Source of the DNA: a virus
DNA: 64,000 bases
Virus record (IMG/VR): IMGVR_UViG_3300050821_006672
Coordinates: 1-64,000 of that record
Direction: 5' to 3' (one strand)
The position numbers and the translations under genes are program-made. The notes under the pieces are model-generated. The model did not search any database, was not told the origin of the DNA, and was given only the letters and a program-made list of their open reading frames with translations. Numbering within the stretch: the stretch's first letter is position 1; every line of letters starts with the position of its first letter. Shown in pieces: positions 12,612 to 18,537 of the stretch.

Positions 12612-14600
12612 TCACCCTTCCGTAAACAGTACTCGTCCGATTGCGGTAATCAATGGTGCCAGCTTATCAGACTGATTGAAGGGCTGTGAGAATGCATCAA
12701 GAATTCCCAACGCATGACAGGCGGCACGATCGGTCTTCGCTCCTTTGGCAACGCTCGCCATGTAGTTAGCCACCACAATGCGGATTGACTCTGGGTTTTC
12801 GCCATCGAGTTGTTCGAGTAGTCCCATTGCCTTCATCCATGATCCCCCCTTGACCAGGAAGCGGCAGAGTTCGATCATGGCATCGGACTGAGAAGCAGTG
12901 TGGAGTAGTTCGCTGGCTTCTTTACGAGACCTGGCGTTTCGACACAACTCGAGGTTGACAAGGAGTTGGCGTGGCGAGCCACGGGCTTCCTTGATGATGG
13001 TATCGCCGACATCTCCAGGGAGTTCCAGGTCCTCAGCTTCGGCAACTTTGTCATACAATTTGCCAAGGTCGGTATTGGGAACATCACGCAGAGTGTAGCT
13101 GGCAGCACGGGTCTTGATTGTATCTGGCACTTTCGATGGTTCGGTTGTGCAGAAGAACCAAAAAGCATGTTCCGGGGGTTTCTCAGTGATCTTCAATAGT
13201 GACTGCCATGCATTTTTCGATAAACTGTGACAGTTGTGTACAATAACATTGGCGACGCTAAATGATGGGTGCTCTTTTATTTCTAAGTCATAGAACTCAA
13301 ATAGCGCTTCACCGTCCAGACTACCGCACGGGAATTGCCCGATATTTGTGAGTTCTTGAAGCGAAGGATGGTCCACCCCAATGACTGTAGTCGCTCGTCC
13401 TTGAGCTTGTCTATTTGGCGTTGTTGTCGAGAGTTGTGTGTTCCACCATCCACCTCGATACCCAATCGCTGCTTCGGAAAACCGATGTCGATTTTGTAAC
13501 AGGATGGCCATCCCTTTAGCCTTCGACCATGCCCAAACGTAACAACATGTTCCAACTGCCCACCAACTAAGGAGTGTAGTAACGTTTGTTCCCGAGTTGG
13601 TCCCTTGCCATTCCCACCGCGTTCGCCTGTCCATATGTGAAGCGTGCCATTGGTATCTTTCACGCGTAGCATCTTTTCTACTGTCGCTTGATTGCGCATT
13701 GGGTTGTTGTGACGCATTCGAATACTGCATCGTTTGGCAATGCCAGCCCACATCTCTGGTTTTTTGTGTTTGCTTCGAAGCACTCCCGCACGTTGATTGT
13801 TTTTTCTTTGCTGGGAGTGAGATCGTCCAACTCGTTTCAAACCACCAAGTTTGGCTCCGCATTTTCGTGAACACGTAGTTACAGGGGATGTTGGCCGCGC
13901 TCGAAAGTATTCTCCACAAATTACGCATTTTCTCTTCAAGCACTCTGGACAGAATATTGATCCACTTTTTTTGCTCGTATACCGGGTCCCACATTGACGA
14001 CAAGTGTTGTGGTATATTGGAGGCGTTAGTGGGTAACCTTTTGGCATGTAAATCCCTCGCGTTGATCCAACCGCCAAATGTCAGAAATGGATGTTCTTGC
14101 GAGGAGATTATATGATGCCCGCTTTCCAGGCGCAATCTAACAATGTGTGATAAAGGAACTAGTCGTTTGCTCACTGATGCGACAGTTTGCTCGCCGTGAG
14201 CGCCTAGTACTTTGTCTCCTGACAGGAGCTGTTCAATGGGAACATCCCCGTTAGGAGTGTTTACTAAGGTGCCTTTAACAAAGCATTCGTCCAAGATGAC
14301 GGCGCGTTTCGTTCCCTGCCCGAATGGTTTGTAACGAAGCATCTCCTGGATTGAGCGCATATCGTCAACGCCAGTACGAGATGCGGCGTCAATCTCGGTG
14401 ATGTTGGCATCGAGACATCCTGCTGTTCGCGCAGATATCCTTGCCAAAGTCGTCTTTCCACATCCCGATGGCCCACAGAAAAGGAAGGTTTGCGCTCCCC
14501 CTCTTAAGATAATGGCTTTCAATGATTTGATAATAGTTGTATGACCAATGACCTCATCAAAGGTTCTAGGTCGATACTTGTCGTGCAGTACCTCTGTCAT
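12612..14600 (-). CDS. Clamp-loader AAA+ ATPase interrupted by an intein
   Basis: 662 residues before splicing, about 311 after removal of the 351-residue intein. ATG 14600 overlaps the previous stop (ATGA). The extein has the KYRPRTFDEVIG box of DnaX/RFC loaders, Walker A GPSGCGKTT (43-51), an intein inserted directly after Walker B VILDE (Cys106), then CHSLSKNAWQSLLK and the sensor-1 CTTE. The loader opens the DnaN-like clamp (18636-19682) around primed DNA. Only one loader gene is visible. Insertion in the Walker B/DEAH motif is typical because that site is invariant. Confidence 0.9.
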   Translation of the reverse strand: MTEVLHDKYRPRTFDEVIGHTTIIKSLKAIILRGGAQTFLFCGPSGCGKTTLARISARTAGCLDANITEIDAASRTGVDDMRSIQEMLRYKPFGQGTKRAVILDECFVKGTLVNTPNGDVPIEQLLSGDKVLGAHGEQTVASVSKRLVPLSHIVRLRLESGHHIISSQEHPFLTFGGWINARDLHAKRLPTNASNIPQHLSSMWDPVYEQKKWINILSRVLEEKMRNLWRILSSAANIPCNYVFTKMRSQTWWFETSWTISLPAKKKQSTCGSASKQTQKTRDVGWHCQTMQYSNASQQPNAQSSDSRKDATRERYQWHASHMDRRTRWEWQGTNSGTNVTTLLSWWAVGTCCYVWAWSKAKGMAILLQNRHRFSEAAIGYRGGWWNTQLSTTTPNRQAQGRATTVIGVDHPSLQELTNIGQFPCGSLDGEALFEFYDLEIKEHPSFSVANVIVHNCHSLSKNAWQSLLKITEKPPEHAFWFFCTTEPSKVPDTIKTRAASYTLRDVPNTDLGKLYDKVAEAEDLELPGDVGDTIIKEARGSPRQLLVNLELCRNARSRKEASELLHTASQSDAMIELCRFLVKGGSWMKAMGLLEQLDGENPESIRIVVANYMASVAKGAKTDRAACHALGILDAFSQPFNQSDKLAPLITAIGRVLFTEG
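13233..14285 (-). mobile_element. Intein in the clamp loader, with an internal endonuclease gene in another frame
   Basis: 351 codons between DE and CHSLSK. Block A is CFVKGTLVNTPNGD, block B is SSQEHPFLTFGGW, block F is FYDLEIKEHPSFS, and the end is VIVHN followed by Cys+1, so the splicing residues look intact. The region between block B and block F translates in the intein frame as a Ser/Thr/Trp/Gln-rich sequence without a recognisable endonuclease, because the endonuclease lies in another frame (13283-14047). The intein frame nevertheless has no stop codon there. Confidence 0.9.
13283..14047 (-). CDS. Vsr/DUF559-like homing endonuclease nested in the intein, other frame
   Basis: 254 residues from ATG 14047, with GAGGG eight bases upstream; both lie inside intein block B coding sequence. 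The N-terminus carries Cys knuckles (CRQCG, FCPECLKRKCVICGE, CSRKCG), the middle a basic RSHSQQRKNN region, and the C-terminus a Vsr/DUF559-like nuclease: YKIDIGFP, LGIEVDGGTHN, then LKDERLQSLGWTILRF. Its TAG stop falls within the codons for intein block F (YDLE) in the other frame. It is probably translated on its own and drives homing of the intein allele. Confidence 0.85.
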   Translation of the reverse strand: MPKGYPLTPPIYHNTCRQCGTRYTSKKSGSIFCPECLKRKCVICGEYFRARPTSPVTTCSRKCGAKLGGLKRVGRSHSQQRKNNQRAGVLRSKHKKPEMWAGIAKRCSIRMRHNNPMRNQATVEKMLRVKDTNGTLHIWTGERGGNGKGPTREQTLLHSLVGGQLEHVVTFGHGRRLKGWPSCYKIDIGFPKQRLGIEVDGGTHNSRQQRQIDKLKDERLQSLGWTILRFKNSQISGNSRAVVWTVKRYLSSMT

Positions 14601-15019
14601 TTCTTTTCCCATGGAAATACTAGCCAAGTATCTTGTTCGACTTTTACAGAGAATGTATCAATGAATTGTGTTTCCGTAGGTTTTGCGTACACCACTGCAT
14701 AATGAGCAGTAAGCACTTTTTGTACGCTTTCTATCGTTTTTCCTGTACTAATAGTGTCATCAACTACTAATACGGGACTAGGCATGAGACGGGGAAACTT
14801 GGTGATGTGAAGAAGACTGCCTCGTTGTTTGTTTTCGTCGTAGCTTTCTATGCATAGGGTTTCAATCATACGAATGTTGAGTTCGTGTGCAATTATTGTG
14901 GCTGGAACCAAGCCCCCTCGGGATACTGCAATAATTGATGCGAAGCCCCGTGGCAGTTGTTTGATGAGTGCTCTGGTGTCCTGATGAAATCGTTCCCAGG
15001 TGATGTTGATGGTATTCAT
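14597..15019 (-). CDS. Phosphoribosyltransferase (xanthine/hypoxanthine type)
   Basis: 140 residues. VSRGGLVPA near residue 33 and the PRPP-binding motif VLVVDDTISTGKT near residue 83 match Gpt-like purine phosphoribosyltransferases. It would make XMP or GMP-type nucleotides from free purine bases. In a phage that consumes GTP to build deazaguanine, guanine salvage is a plausible role. Both ends overlap neighbours by ATGA, so it is coupled to polymerase and clamp loader. Confidence 0.8.
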   Translation of the reverse strand: MNTINITWERFHQDTRALIKQLPRGFASIIAVSRGGLVPATIIAHELNIRMIETLCIESYDENKQRGSLLHITKFPRLMPSPVLVVDDTISTGKTIESVQKVLTAHYAVVYAKPTETQFIDTFSVKVEQDTWLVFPWEKK

Positions 15020-18000
15020 GATCGCTTATGTCCCCAAATTTCTACGGAACTGAACTTGCCAATCTCGGTCAGGTCACACCAGTTTTCTCCAACTGAGACT
15101 TCCACCCCTAGAGGAACATTTACCCATGGGAACTCTACGCGGGTCATCTCACGTACTACAATTTCCAAGTTCTTGTCGATTTCGTGCTTGGGCCAGATGA
15201 AAGTCAAATCATCATGTATCTCCATATTGGCTTGGAAACGTAATTGTTCATATTCGGACAATCGCGCCATAGCAGAACATACAATTTTCGATTCAAGTGC
15301 TTGGATAGGGCTGTTGATTCTTTGGTTAGGTGAGATTGGTGCACGACGCCTGAAACCGGACAGTCCCGTGATGTACCCTAGTTTGTAGTACATCTTTTCT
15401 AAGTCGTCATGCCACTTTTTGATATCAGGAAACTTACTCCAGAATGTCTCTTGTAGTTTGACGCCGATGTGTTTCGGAACACCCAACCCTCCCGATACAT
15501 TTTCTGCCTGCGCGCCGAAGAACGAGGGAAATACGAACTTGTTCTTCGACTCCTGCCGGAGTTCCTTTGCAAGTTCCTTGTCTTTGAGTGATTTTCCACG
15601 CAACCATTGCGGATACATTTTGGCGAGCCGATACATCCAGTCCGAATGAATGTCATAGTTGTTCCAGAATGCATCTACCAAAGCTTTATCACATGACTCC
15701 ATAGCAACATTACGTGCTTGAATACCTGAGAAATCAACTGTGACAACACGCAAATCCCCTCCCGGCTTAACCTGCTTTCGCAACTTACGGTTAGGCCCAT
15801 GCTTTACTATGTTTTGGCTATTAGGATCATTACTACTCGTTCGCCACGTGCGAGTACTATGCGTGCTAATGTGAGGATGAACGCAGCCATCCGAGTATAA
15901 AGTATCCGAGCCCTTCTTGAAGGGAAGTATATACGTGGAATGCATCTTGTTGGCTTCGCGCCAATCCAAGACCAAGTTTACAAAAGGATGTTTGATCTGT
16001 TTGAGTTCGTTTTCATCCACGCTCTCGACGGGATGATTGAGTATCTTCTCAATGACGAACTTGACATCCTGATTGGCTGATGGTCGAAATTCTGTCTTTT
16101 TTATCCGAGCAAACTTCTTTACGACGTCGAGTTGTGTCAGGTCTTTCTCTATCTTGCTACGACGTTGCGTAAATTCCTTGTCAAACTCGTTAACGACATC
16201 CTGGTTTGCTGGAATGCCTTTCAATTGGGTGAGAACCATCGTTGGGATGCGCCGCAACTGATGCTCGTACACACCCATCAAATCTTCGTCACGCAGACGT
16301 TTACGCTGTGGGAAGTACAAGTAGCGATGGGCTTTGCTATCGAGTGCGTTGTAACGTAGGACTTGGTCTAATGGTTCCTTGTCCAGGTTGTTCTTATCGA
16401 GCTTCCCAAACAACGCTTTTACGTCCAGCCCAAAGTACTGGATGCAAAGGAACTCGAGGCTGTGGCATCCGGGGTTGCCTCCCATACGTTCATCCAGGAT
16501 GTAGGCTTGTGAAAGCGTGTCTTCCCAGGGTTGGGCGCGGAGTACCTTCCTGCCATAGAAATATGCTGACCACTCCATTTCAAAGGAGAGTGAATGTACC
16601 ACCTTCTTACAAGGAGCGGTCAGGAGAAACTCTAGCAGAGTATCTTCTACGCGTTCGATCTGACGATCAGACCAGTCACATTCTGGATGATACAAGGGAA
16701 ATGATGCGGCAACCTCATATCCCGCCATTGCCACTGTGAGTATTTTTGAGGTCTTCTTGTATGGGCGTAATCCTTTTGTTTCGTAGTCATAGCCGACGAT
16801 CTTTTCGTTATGCATCGCCTTGATGAACTTGATTGCGGCATCGGGATTTGTAATGATCTCTACGTCACGTGAGAGGTCCTCGACGGTGAAAACCTTGGGT
16901 TCGGGGAGTTTGTCAACGATGGCAAATGCATTACGCAGATCATTAGCAAATGCGAACTCGATGTCCGAGCCATAGCTGTTTTTATCCCTTGGCTCAAACT
17001 TGCGGGACCGTCCTACGTAGGACGGATGCATCATGGGGAAGAACCAGCAAATGTGATTCCCTACCTTGATGGGAACATGTCTGCCATTCCACTTGGTAAT
17101 GCCTTGCTGCTTGAGCGCCCATTGAAGGGGCACGTTTCCAAAACCGAAGATTGCTTTTGGCTTTGTCTTTTCTACGTCGGACGTAATTGATGGACGGCAG
17201 CACTCCACTTCTACCTGGGTAGGTTCACGGTTCTTGGGTGGTCGAGTGTTGCTTACGACATGATTTTCCGCTACATACCAACCTTCGTCGGTTTCTAAGT
17301 TGTATATAAATCCTTCAAAGGGTTGGGTATCAATATGAATGACATTGTCAAACTGTATAAGAGTGGGGTTAGTTTGTGTCAACTTGAAGAGCAACTCGGA
17401 ACCTCCAAGTTCTTGATTAAGAAAATCCTCCTTTCTAATGGGGTGCGAATGCGTACCCATAGAGAGTCCAGAAATATTGAAGCGGCTAAGCCCTTGTGGA
17501 GACCTCCATCCGTTAAGGAAGTCTGTGATAGGTACGTCGCCGGTGAAAGCACGGAAGAACTCGCTAAAATTTATCATGTCCGCCCGCGTACTGTAAGTAG
17601 TTTTCTCAAACGGAACGGTATTAAAATCAGAAATGTTAGTGAACAGCTGCGTGTTTGGGCAAAGCGAAATCCCAGTGTTATCGATAGGAAACGTCGCTTC
17701 GGTCAGGGTATTAGATTGGGGGCCAATCTCAGAGAGGTTTGTACTCGCGAGGCACGTGCTAGAAGACTTCAACAAACACTTTCTGTTGCCTCTGATATTG
17801 AGCTGCTGTTGATTCCCGAACTTAAGCGGAGAAGCATTCGATTTATCAGACAGTACCCAGTTGGGACTTACAACCTCGACTTCGCCTGTTCCAATATCGC
17901 CGTGGAAATTGAAGTTAGTGTCAACCATCCGTTGGCTATGCCCCACAAGAGATTGCGCTGCAAAAAGCTCATCGAGGCGGGATGGTTTGTTTTGTTCGTG

Positions 18001-18537
18001 TGGATAAATTCCTCCCATCCATTGGTTCCTGCTACCGTAGTTAACTATTTGATCTCCAAGAGAAAGTTGATACGCGAAAAGCCATCCTTGGGATGTAAGT
18101 ATTGGGTGGTGCGGGGTACAGGGGAGTTCGTCTCCAAAACGCGTCTTGACTATTATAAGCTCACCCACGAAGTAGCGGCGGAATAACTTCTTTATTCTGG
18201 ACGGTGTTGTTACTTTTACTGAACCAGGAAAGCAGCGCACTACATTGGTCCATCGAATCTTATCATTCCATTTCTCAGGAATGCGAAAGCGTAGTATCTG
18301 GCCCGTCTTCCCGACAAACTGCTTTCCTTGCTCGTCTTCCGAGGCCCCAGGGGCTTCCCCAATTACTAAAATTGTAGGATGATCGGAACCAGTTGGCTCC
18401 ATGTGTGGATGTTTTAGCCCGCGCTGATGGTTGAGCGGACAGACCGCGCAGCCATGGCGATGAAGGAAATCTACAGATAGGTTTTTGGGAACCAGTGATT
18501 CATTGTTGCGAGCTGGGGACGTTGGAAGGAAACCCAT
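15016..18537 (-). CDS. polA: DNA polymerase I fused to an N-terminal uracil-glycosylase-like domain, with intein
   Basis: 1173 residues before splicing, about 844 after. Residues 26-100 plus the post-intein part form a family-4-type uracil-DNA glycosylase domain: Cys30/Cys33, GEAPGASEDEQGKQFVG, then the intein, then TRPPKNREP and a CC pair. A 3'-5' exonuclease follows (YDYETKGL, the HSLSFEMEW region), then a family A polymerase: motif A VVTVDFSGIQAR, the motif B region, and motif C MEIHDDLTF. The spliced junction VVR-TRPP replaces the usual Cys of this UDG motif with Thr. This is the replicative polymerase. Confidence 0.92.
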   Translation of the reverse strand: MGFLPTSPARNNESLVPKNLSVDFLHRHGCAVCPLNHQRGLKHPHMEPTGSDHPTILVIGEAPGASEDEQGKQFVGKTGQILRFRIPEKWNDKIRWTNVVRCFPGSVKVTTPSRIKKLFRRYFVGELIIVKTRFGDELPCTPHHPILTSQGWLFAYQLSLGDQIVNYGSRNQWMGGIYPHEQNKPSRLDELFAAQSLVGHSQRMVDTNFNFHGDIGTGEVEVVSPNWVLSDKSNASPLKFGNQQQLNIRGNRKCLLKSSSTCLASTNLSEIGPQSNTLTEATFPIDNTGISLCPNTQLFTNISDFNTVPFEKTTYSTRADMINFSEFFRAFTGDVPITDFLNGWRSPQGLSRFNISGLSMGTHSHPIRKEDFLNQELGGSELLFKLTQTNPTLIQFDNVIHIDTQPFEGFIYNLETDEGWYVAENHVVSNTRPPKNREPTQVEVECCRPSITSDVEKTKPKAIFGFGNVPLQWALKQQGITKWNGRHVPIKVGNHICWFFPMMHPSYVGRSRKFEPRDKNSYGSDIEFAFANDLRNAFAIVDKLPEPKVFTVEDLSRDVEIITNPDAAIKFIKAMHNEKIVGYDYETKGLRPYKKTSKILTVAMAGYEVAASFPLYHPECDWSDRQIERVEDTLLEFLLTAPCKKVVHSLSFEMEWSAYFYGRKVLRAQPWEDTLSQAYILDERMGGNPGCHSLEFLCIQYFGLDVKALFGKLDKNNLDKEPLDQVLRYNALDSKAHRYLYFPQRKRLRDEDLMGVYEHQLRRIPTMVLTQLKGIPANQDVVNEFDKEFTQRRSKIEKDLTQLDVVKKFARIKKTEFRPSANQDVKFVIEKILNHPVESVDENELKQIKHPFVNLVLDWREANKMHSTYILPFKKGSDTLYSDGCVHPHISTHSTRTWRTSSNDPNSQNIVKHGPNRKLRKQVKPGGDLRVVTVDFSGIQARNVAMESCDKALVDAFWNNYDIHSDWMYRLAKMYPQWLRGKSLKDKELAKELRQESKNKFVFPSFFGAQAENVSGGLGVPKHIGVKLQETFWSKFPDIKKWHDDLEKMYYKLGYITGLSGFRRRAPISPNQRINSPIQALESKIVCSAMARLSEYEQLRFQANMEIHDDLTFIWPKHEIDKNLEIVVREMTRVEFPWVNVPLGVEVSVGENWCDLTEIGKFSSVEIWGHKRS
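17248..18234 (-). mobile_element. Intein in the UDG domain of the polymerase, with an antisense endonuclease gene
   Basis: 329 codons inserted between NVVR and TRPPKN. It starts CFPGSVKVTT, has block B-like PCTPHHPILTSQGW and a C-terminal part FEGFIYNLETDEGWYVA ending HVVSN before Thr+1. The penultimate residue is Ser, not the usual His. The middle of the intein frame is open but codes no recognisable domain, because the opposite strand carries a complete endonuclease gene (17335-18186). Confidence 0.88.
17335..18186 (+). CDS. Homing endonuclease encoded antisense inside the polymerase intein
   Basis: 283 residues from ATG 17335 with AAAGGG upstream; a TTG at 17323 would add four residues. 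Two N-terminal HTH units (about 1-30 and 60-90, e.g. STEELAKIYHVRPRTVSSFL) precede a basic region and a Vsr/DUF559-like nuclease: SDIELLLIPELKRRSIRF, YNLDFACSNIAVEIEV, KLIEAGWFVLFVW. The gene runs against the intein, and its last 45 codons or so lie opposite the N-terminal Hint region. It is the only clear rightward gene inside the leftward block. It likely promotes intein homing. Confidence 0.85.
   Translation: MNDIVKLYKSGVSLCQLEEQLGTSKFLIKKILLSNGVRMRTHRESRNIEAAKPLWRPPSVKEVCDRYVAGESTEELAKIYHVRPRTVSSFLKRNGIKIRNVSEQLRVWAKRNPSVIDRKRRFGQGIRLGANLREVCTREARARRLQQTLSVASDIELLLIPELKRRSIRFIRQYPVGTYNLDFACSNIAVEIEVSVNHPLAMPHKRLRCKKLIEAGWFVLFVWINSSHPLVPATVVNYLISKRKLIREKPSLGCKYWVVRGTGEFVSKTRLDYYKLTHEVAAE

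Follow-up and report, generated by a model that had tools for sequence, protein, structure and literature searches.

IMG/VR virus record IMGVR_UViG_3300050821_006672 was analysed over its positions 1 to 64,000 (64,000 nucleotides, the window), in which a polymerase gene on the minus strand is interrupted by an intein whose opposite strand carries a homing-endonuclease-like gene. The host gene (15016-18537) encodes 1173 residues comprising a family-4 uracil-DNA glycosylase (UDG), a 3'-5' exonuclease and a family A DNA polymerase (PolA), as recognised by the Pfam profiles UDG (1e-19), DNA_pol_A_exo1 (3e-13) and DNA_pol_A (1e-44). The intein (17248-18234, minus strand) lies in the UDG domain and spans 329 residues, C102 to N430 of the UDG-PolA protein. 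It begins with the expected Cys, features the T..H pattern of block B as TPHH, and ends in VVSN with the terminal Asn followed by a +1 Thr, the flanks being NVVR and TRPPKNREP. The insertion is in frame at a conserved host motif, and an uninterrupted allele is found in an IMG/VR relative (L012) that reads NCVR-TRPPNNR where the intein sits; at 44% identity to the window gene over the segment downstream of the intein, this relative is the sole, and a distant, empty homologue for the site. The host frame on the minus strand is open, with zero stops, through the whole intein. A split intein in a fractured gene was ruled out, the UDG-PolA intein being a single open frame rather than halves in separate open reading frames (ORFs). 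Domain searches of the sense frame did not find an endonuclease domain, so this is not a canonical bifunctional intein. With 45% GC the intein is poorer in GC than the window (51.5%), a difference that would fit a recent acquisition.

The intein profiles Intein_splicing (8e-5) and TIGR01445 (0.0016) both score under their curated cut-offs, and the penultimate residue is Ser instead of the usual His. Both features would fit an insertion that no longer works as an intein, its sense frame being kept open by the need of the host gene for read-through and an unspliced or partly spliced fusion being tolerated. However, C1, the block B T..H, the terminal Asn and the +1 Thr are all present, and the insertion splits the UDG domain where a relative stays uninterrupted. 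A penultimate His is usual in inteins, not universal; Ser precedes the terminal Asn also in relatives L003, L005, L006 and L026 (His in L002 and L008), and the MuF-intein relatives described below share either Ser or Arg at this position. We consider a defunct intein very improbable.

On the plus strand, an ORF of 283 codons (17335-18186; ATG at 17335, alternative TTG start at 17323) spans 86% of the intein in exact codon register, each of its codons being the reverse complement of an intein codon. The N-terminal, DNA-binding part (17335-17652) consists of two helix-turn-helix (HTH) repeats at approximately residues 1-50 and 60-106, with matches to Pfam HTH and to Cbp1 of NCBIfam (2e-5) and, using profile A6, to the Cbp1-like structure 2lvs (5e-11). 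It is followed by a DUF559/EDxHD (Vsr-like) nuclease domain (17749-18006; Pfam DUF559, 6e-7) that scores 29.7 bits against PF04480, above the cut-off of 20.6. The same profile A6 matches the DUF559 structure 3hrl (1e-5) as well as 3r3p (6e-5), which was deposited as 'Mobile intron protein' and which we take to be the catalytic domain of I-Bth0305I. Alignments place the conserved nuclease residues at E156 (17800-17802), D182 (17878-17880) and E191 of the 'AVE' motif (17905-17907), and the window protein retains E156, Y179-N180, D182 and the AVE motif. A preliminary annotation made from the letters alone, the sequence-only reading, had placed the intein at exactly these coordinates, with a minus-strand frame free of stops opposite the antisense gene, and had described the plus-strand ORF at 17335-18186 as a 283-residue HTH plus Vsr/DUF559-like protein; all three points are borne out.

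The two proteins face each other at 17863-17907, where the plus strand encodes GTYNLDFACSNIAVE, the nuclease core, and the minus strand encodes FHGDIGTGEVEVVSP, part of the intein linker. This pair is found in most relatives (diverged or absent in L004, L025 and L036): the nuclease motif GxYNLDFA...AVE is the complement of DFHGD..GEVEVV in the sense linker, the only recurring sense motif we noticed there. Since this motif mirrors the nuclease core, we do not claim a second functional domain in the sense linker and treat that part of the sense protein as mostly an open, passive spacer. A second stretch in which conserved parts lie opposite each other is the overlap between the endonuclease C-terminus and Hint-N (18040-18186, both strands), which includes block B, TPHHP being the complement of WVVRGT. 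Opposite the gene the sense frame uses 54 Leu/Ser codons (28 Leu, 26 Ser), of which none is TTA, CTA or TCA (P ~3e-5 by the codon usage of this phage), and in the reverse direction the count is 0/51 Leu/Ser codons (P ~4e-5). The other four frames over the intein contain 2-31 stops; the count of two is that of a plus frame, namely the endonuclease frame extended over the full length of the intein.

With the antisense protein as a tblastn query, 109 phage records match at a threshold of E 1e-3, rising to 120 at 1e-2, the best being Gordonia phage Vivi2 (E 5e-24, coverage 94%); a search with the sense intein recovers a nearly equal number, 105. Overall we estimate that some 110-125 phage records contain relatives. 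In the MuF records examined, the matches lie antisense within the annotated MuF-type head genes of Gordonia phages Vivi2 and Malisha, Vibrio phage H2, Idiomarinaceae phage 1N2-2, Cronobacter phage ES2, Klebsiella phage RCIP0054, Escherichia phages Snoke and fEg-Eco06, Salmonella Jerseyviruses, Pseudomonas phages and Haemophilus phage Aaphi23. We examined 45 loci, some of them duplicates or near-duplicates: 23 are phage records, and the other 22 come from IMG/VR and one Atlantibacter genome. All 45 have a host frame open through the intein together with an exactly complementary antisense ORF. Among these loci all hosts are MuF-type genes, and the UDG-polymerase of the window is the sole other host seen; the element thus appears, from the distribution of its sequences, to have moved between unrelated host genes. 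Among 369 genomes of the G001 (Atlantibacter) class, a profile search gave five with a match, essentially one true relative, and scans of collections recovered relatives with narrower alignments.

The geometry is closely kept. In 11 of the 12 relatives compared the antisense ORF covers 86-92% of the intein, and in 10 of the 12 the endonuclease ATG lies exactly 60 nt from the C-terminal end of the intein, base for base opposite the His codon of '(G/C)HVYNL' (block F); a GAGGT-type, Shine-Dalgarno-like sequence lies opposite the NLE/NLQ codons. As read from these loci, the arrangement is shared by many unrelated phages and is the standard form of a MuF intein family. Annotation captures one strand or the other: in Snoke (MK931441) and fEg-Eco06 (PQ141284) the intein is marked and the antisense gene is unmarked, and Salmonella phage PK1 carries an annotated plus-strand hypothetical gene at the position of the antisense gene. 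Gordonia phages Keitabear (L024) and ViaConlectus (L027) have strongly diverged MuF inteins at the NC site of Vivi2, which suggests replacement of intein alleles within Gordonia phages. In Salmonella phage GE_vB_HIL (L089, ~1800-2650) both the sense and the antisense frame of a MuF intein are broken; the record is marked UNVERIFIED and a sequencing error is possible, hence we left it out as a case of decay.

Because the register is exact, position 1 of the sense codon is the wobble base of the endonuclease codon, and codon position reports which strand is under selection. In three Gordonia phages, the difference rates at sense positions 1/2/3 are.187/.038/.136 opposite the gene, compared to.009/.005/.129 in the exteins. 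The corresponding rates are.078/.012/.039 opposite the gene versus.047/.017/.290 in the C-extein for seven Jerseyvirus/Kagunavirus phages, and.232/.044/.109 versus.245/.204/.528 in the exteins for eight enterobacterial prophages. Sliding windows locate the switch inside the intein, with position 3 leading in the exteins and at both Hint ends and position 1 leading between them. The dNN/dNS of the endonuclease is.19 (interval.12-.28) for Gordonia,.09 (.04-.17) for Jerseyvirus/Kagunavirus,.12 (.08-.17) for the enterobacterial prophages and.19 (.12-.30) for a fourth set, the Keitabear/ViaConlectus pair, compared to ~.5-.9 in well-sampled exteins; in Gordonia exteins the changes are too few to tell. 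In all four sets the fastest-changing position within the intein is the wobble base of the endonuclease, whose frame is clearly under purifying selection in the relatives. Purifying selection on the sense frame is supported at the Hint ends and uncertain in the linker. In the overlap of the gene with Hint-N both frames tend to be constrained in the relatives, with wide intervals, and in Jerseyviruses the endonuclease end over Hint-N is weakly constrained (dNN/dNS.59). The sequence-only reading had proposed a codon-substitution analysis in relatives among its checks and non-conservation of the antisense frame as its refutation: the analysis shows the wobble shift and the low dNN/dNS just given, and the frame is conserved in distant relatives. 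Its statement that the two strands both encode conserved protein applies mainly to the overlaps with the Hint ends; in the linker, the one recurring sense motif noticed mirrors the nuclease motif.

The exact register couples the two proteins, which raises the question of whether the antisense ORF is a shadow, a complementary frame that is open and similar among phages by accident of conserved, in-register sense coding. In the GC-rich Gordonia exteins there are other in-register antisense ORFs of comparable length, and in these genes a lack of stops is by itself not significant, being uninformative in GC-rich relatives generally. In AT-richer relatives, however, the missing antisense stops are very improbable by extein codon usage (L003, 4e-12; L004, 7e-10; L026, 2e-9). 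Furthermore, the endonuclease similarity is abolished (z 8-15) when synonymous codons are shuffled under an unchanged sense protein, and the sense similarity drops (z 3.5-9) when the endonuclease is kept unchanged instead. The codon phase flips to the antisense wobble in relatives, and curated families of nucleases and HTH proteins are recognised in the antisense protein. Finally, the endonuclease family also occurs free-standing, and there the opposite strand is not open: Acinetobacter phage IME285 (L090, 455-1348) carries a relative convergent to an adjoining, uninterrupted MuF gene, and this relative has 12 in-register antisense stops, compared to none in the 526 Leu/Ser codons of 14 intein-borne genes. 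The open opposite strand is therefore a property of residence in the intein and not of the protein. On the basis of codon phase, shuffles and this free-standing control we reject a chance ORF, and we give the shadow explanation next to no weight. The IME285 relative could itself be a free-standing homing gene or a source of the intein-borne form. A related HTH endonuclease of Staphylococcus phage Alsa_3 (L028, 1453-2442), probably intron-borne, has 24 in-register antisense stops.

To this evidence that both frames are genuine, the intein-free alleles add the dimension of mobility. When the exteins are joined and used as a query, many genes of Kagunavirus and Jerseyvirus phages align without a break (84-96% identity); these are empty alleles. 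In Snoke and fEg-Eco06 the same gene is interrupted at different positions, each phage being empty at the site that is filled in the other, and among the MuF relatives, phages of one genus may either have the element or lack it at precisely the same site. This presence/absence pattern is a homing pattern. What was computed directly from the sequences comprises both frames, their relatives, the fixed register, the selection acting in relatives on the endonuclease frame, and the empty alleles.

In order to rationalise these observations on the molecular level, we infer a mechanism that involves splicing, expression from the antisense strand, cleavage of the empty site and homing. The minus strand would encode the intein as part of the UDG-polymerase, from which it should excise itself after translation. 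The plus strand would encode a separate HTH plus DUF559/EDxHD nuclease, most likely a homing endonuclease, that cuts intein-free alleles such that repair copies in the whole element. Under such an arrangement the intein must exclude TTA, CTA and TCA from the endonuclease, and the endonuclease in turn dictates the linker of the intein. A frameshift or stop that would normally inactivate the endonuclease would at the same time disrupt the essential host gene, and endonuclease decay may be slower as a result.

The antisense gene could also be real and have another function, for example as a DNA-binding regulator or a nuclease in phage competition, for which the intein is only a sheltered address. 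Its HTH repeats do resemble the CRISPR-repeat-binding protein Cbp1, and the nuclease role is predicted from sequence. In contrast, the nuclease core residues are conserved, the profile match is to a protein deposited as a mobile intron protein, the intein and the gene come and go as one unit at exact sites, and the related HTH endonuclease of Alsa_3 sits between pieces annotated RecA/Sak4 and UvsX. We regard such a non-homing function as unlikely. Several points weigh against a homing intein with an antisense endonuclease. The case is made from the gene sequence, so that homing and antisense expression are putative. Our searches recovered no close relative of this phage, and selection was therefore measured in the MuF relatives. 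In the window, besides the Ser in place of the penultimate His, the block F His is replaced by Phe, the start codon is shifted 27 nt inward and the Shine-Dalgarno sequence is weak; the search for a sigma-70-like promoter upstream of the plus-strand gene gave nothing above chance. The AF2 model is weak (pLDDT 64) and Foldseek returned no match at E < 0.001, hence structure was not used. In the sense linker dNS/dSS is ~0.4, with intervals that reach or pass 1 in most groups. On balance, the element is probably a homing intein with an endonuclease overprinted on its opposite strand, a compound mobile element; the distant conservation, the purifying selection and the intein-free alleles lend support to the sequence-only reading, which had likewise proposed a polymerase intein with an antisense endonuclease gene.

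Inteins are normally read in one frame, in which the endonuclease is a domain or has been lost. Related to the present case are the split inteins in fractured genes reportedly found by Dassa et al. in 2009 with free-standing, Vsr-like (EDxHD) homing endonucleases. They share with it an unfused Vsr-like gene associated with a phage intein and differ in that their intein is split with the gene between the halves, whereas here the intein is continuous and the gene lies on the complementary strand. By profile search, and given our assumption about 3r3p, the nuclease core is related to that of I-Bth0305I, which is encoded in a phage group I intron and not opposite an intein. The EDxHD family of I-Bth0305I has been described (PMC3943268). 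Group I introns can carry a homing endonuclease gene on the complementary strand of the self-splicing element, as in the P1 extension of a Porphyra intron (PMC2585584), but the intron strand is untranslated, whereas here both strands must encode protein. The ShiLan insertions in mycobacteriophage methylases (Arsenault, Gosselin, Gogarten 2025, PMC11855218) are the nearest system found; they encode an out-of-frame HNH endonuclease, and their authors detected no self-splicing domain. Like the present element, they place the endonuclease in a frame other than that of the host within a phage insertion lacking in-frame stops, and their distribution is disjunct; they differ in using the same strand (third frame), an HNH nuclease and no splicing domain, in contrast to the opposite strand, the DUF559/EDxHD nuclease and the recognisable intein seen here. 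The MuF/minor head inteins annotated in Snoke and fEg-Eco06 belong to the same intein family, and the antisense gene is present in them too.

In the open literature searched, we did not find an antisense or out-of-frame endonuclease inside an intein; a preprint outside that literature (Gosselin, Arsenault, Gogarten, bioRxiv 2025, 10.1101/2025.01.02.630785) may describe part of it. As far as its title and its citation in PMC11855218 indicate, the preprint deals with actinobacteriophage inteins of 'non-canonical architecture', is cited for overlapping frames and surveys a group that includes Gordonia hosts, and priority over it is uncertain. We see roughly even chances that the findings amount to a widespread intein lineage with an endonuclease overprinted on the complementary strand in one register, block F serving as its ribosome-binding site and start, and to a second family (see below) nested in the +1 frame of the same strand, with a coupling by which neither partner decays alone and the cycle of gain, decay and loss is altered.

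Nearly all of the intein codes for protein on both strands, conserved catalytic motifs lying opposite one another, and it occurs in well-known groups (Jerseyvirus, Kagunavirus, Gordonia and Pseudomonas phages) in which annotation shows mostly one strand; intein surveys limited to the host frame may consequently miss endonucleases. Since codon position alone is diagnostic when the register is exact, these loci offer a clean natural setting in which to study antisense overprinting. Homing can be tested directly between close phages that have and lack the element, and overprinting as protection of a selfish gene from decay becomes testable.

The window contains a second nesting, flagged already in the sequence-only reading and found to be real. 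A 351-residue intein interrupts the DnaX/clamp-loader gene (13233-14285, minus strand) at Walker B (LDE / C...HN / CHSLS), and a zinc-finger (ZnF) plus DUF559 endonuclease-like ORF is nested within it (13283-14047, minus strand) in the +1 frame of the same strand. A search of the 109-kb viral record did not find a third intein. Because the nuclease subfamilies and the frames differ, the two nestings are taken as independent. The clamp-loader case is closer to ShiLan, yet inside an intein. Of 28 ZnF-DUF559 relatives in IMG/VR, 23 lie within a long ORF in its +1 frame, four share the frame of a long ORF and one overlaps no long ORF. Relatives L075-L078, which share such a frame, could be conventional fusions. 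In Vibrio phages K391 and CP-T1 the intein lies at DE / C...HN / CHH, like the clamp-loader intein at Walker B, and the six hosts that were scanned are SF2/SNF2 helicases. As judged from these loci, the +1 nesting in clamp-loader and helicase genes is a separate overprinted family, in which the wobble shifts to host position 1 (.576/.363/.327, compared to.418/.356/.676 in the exteins).

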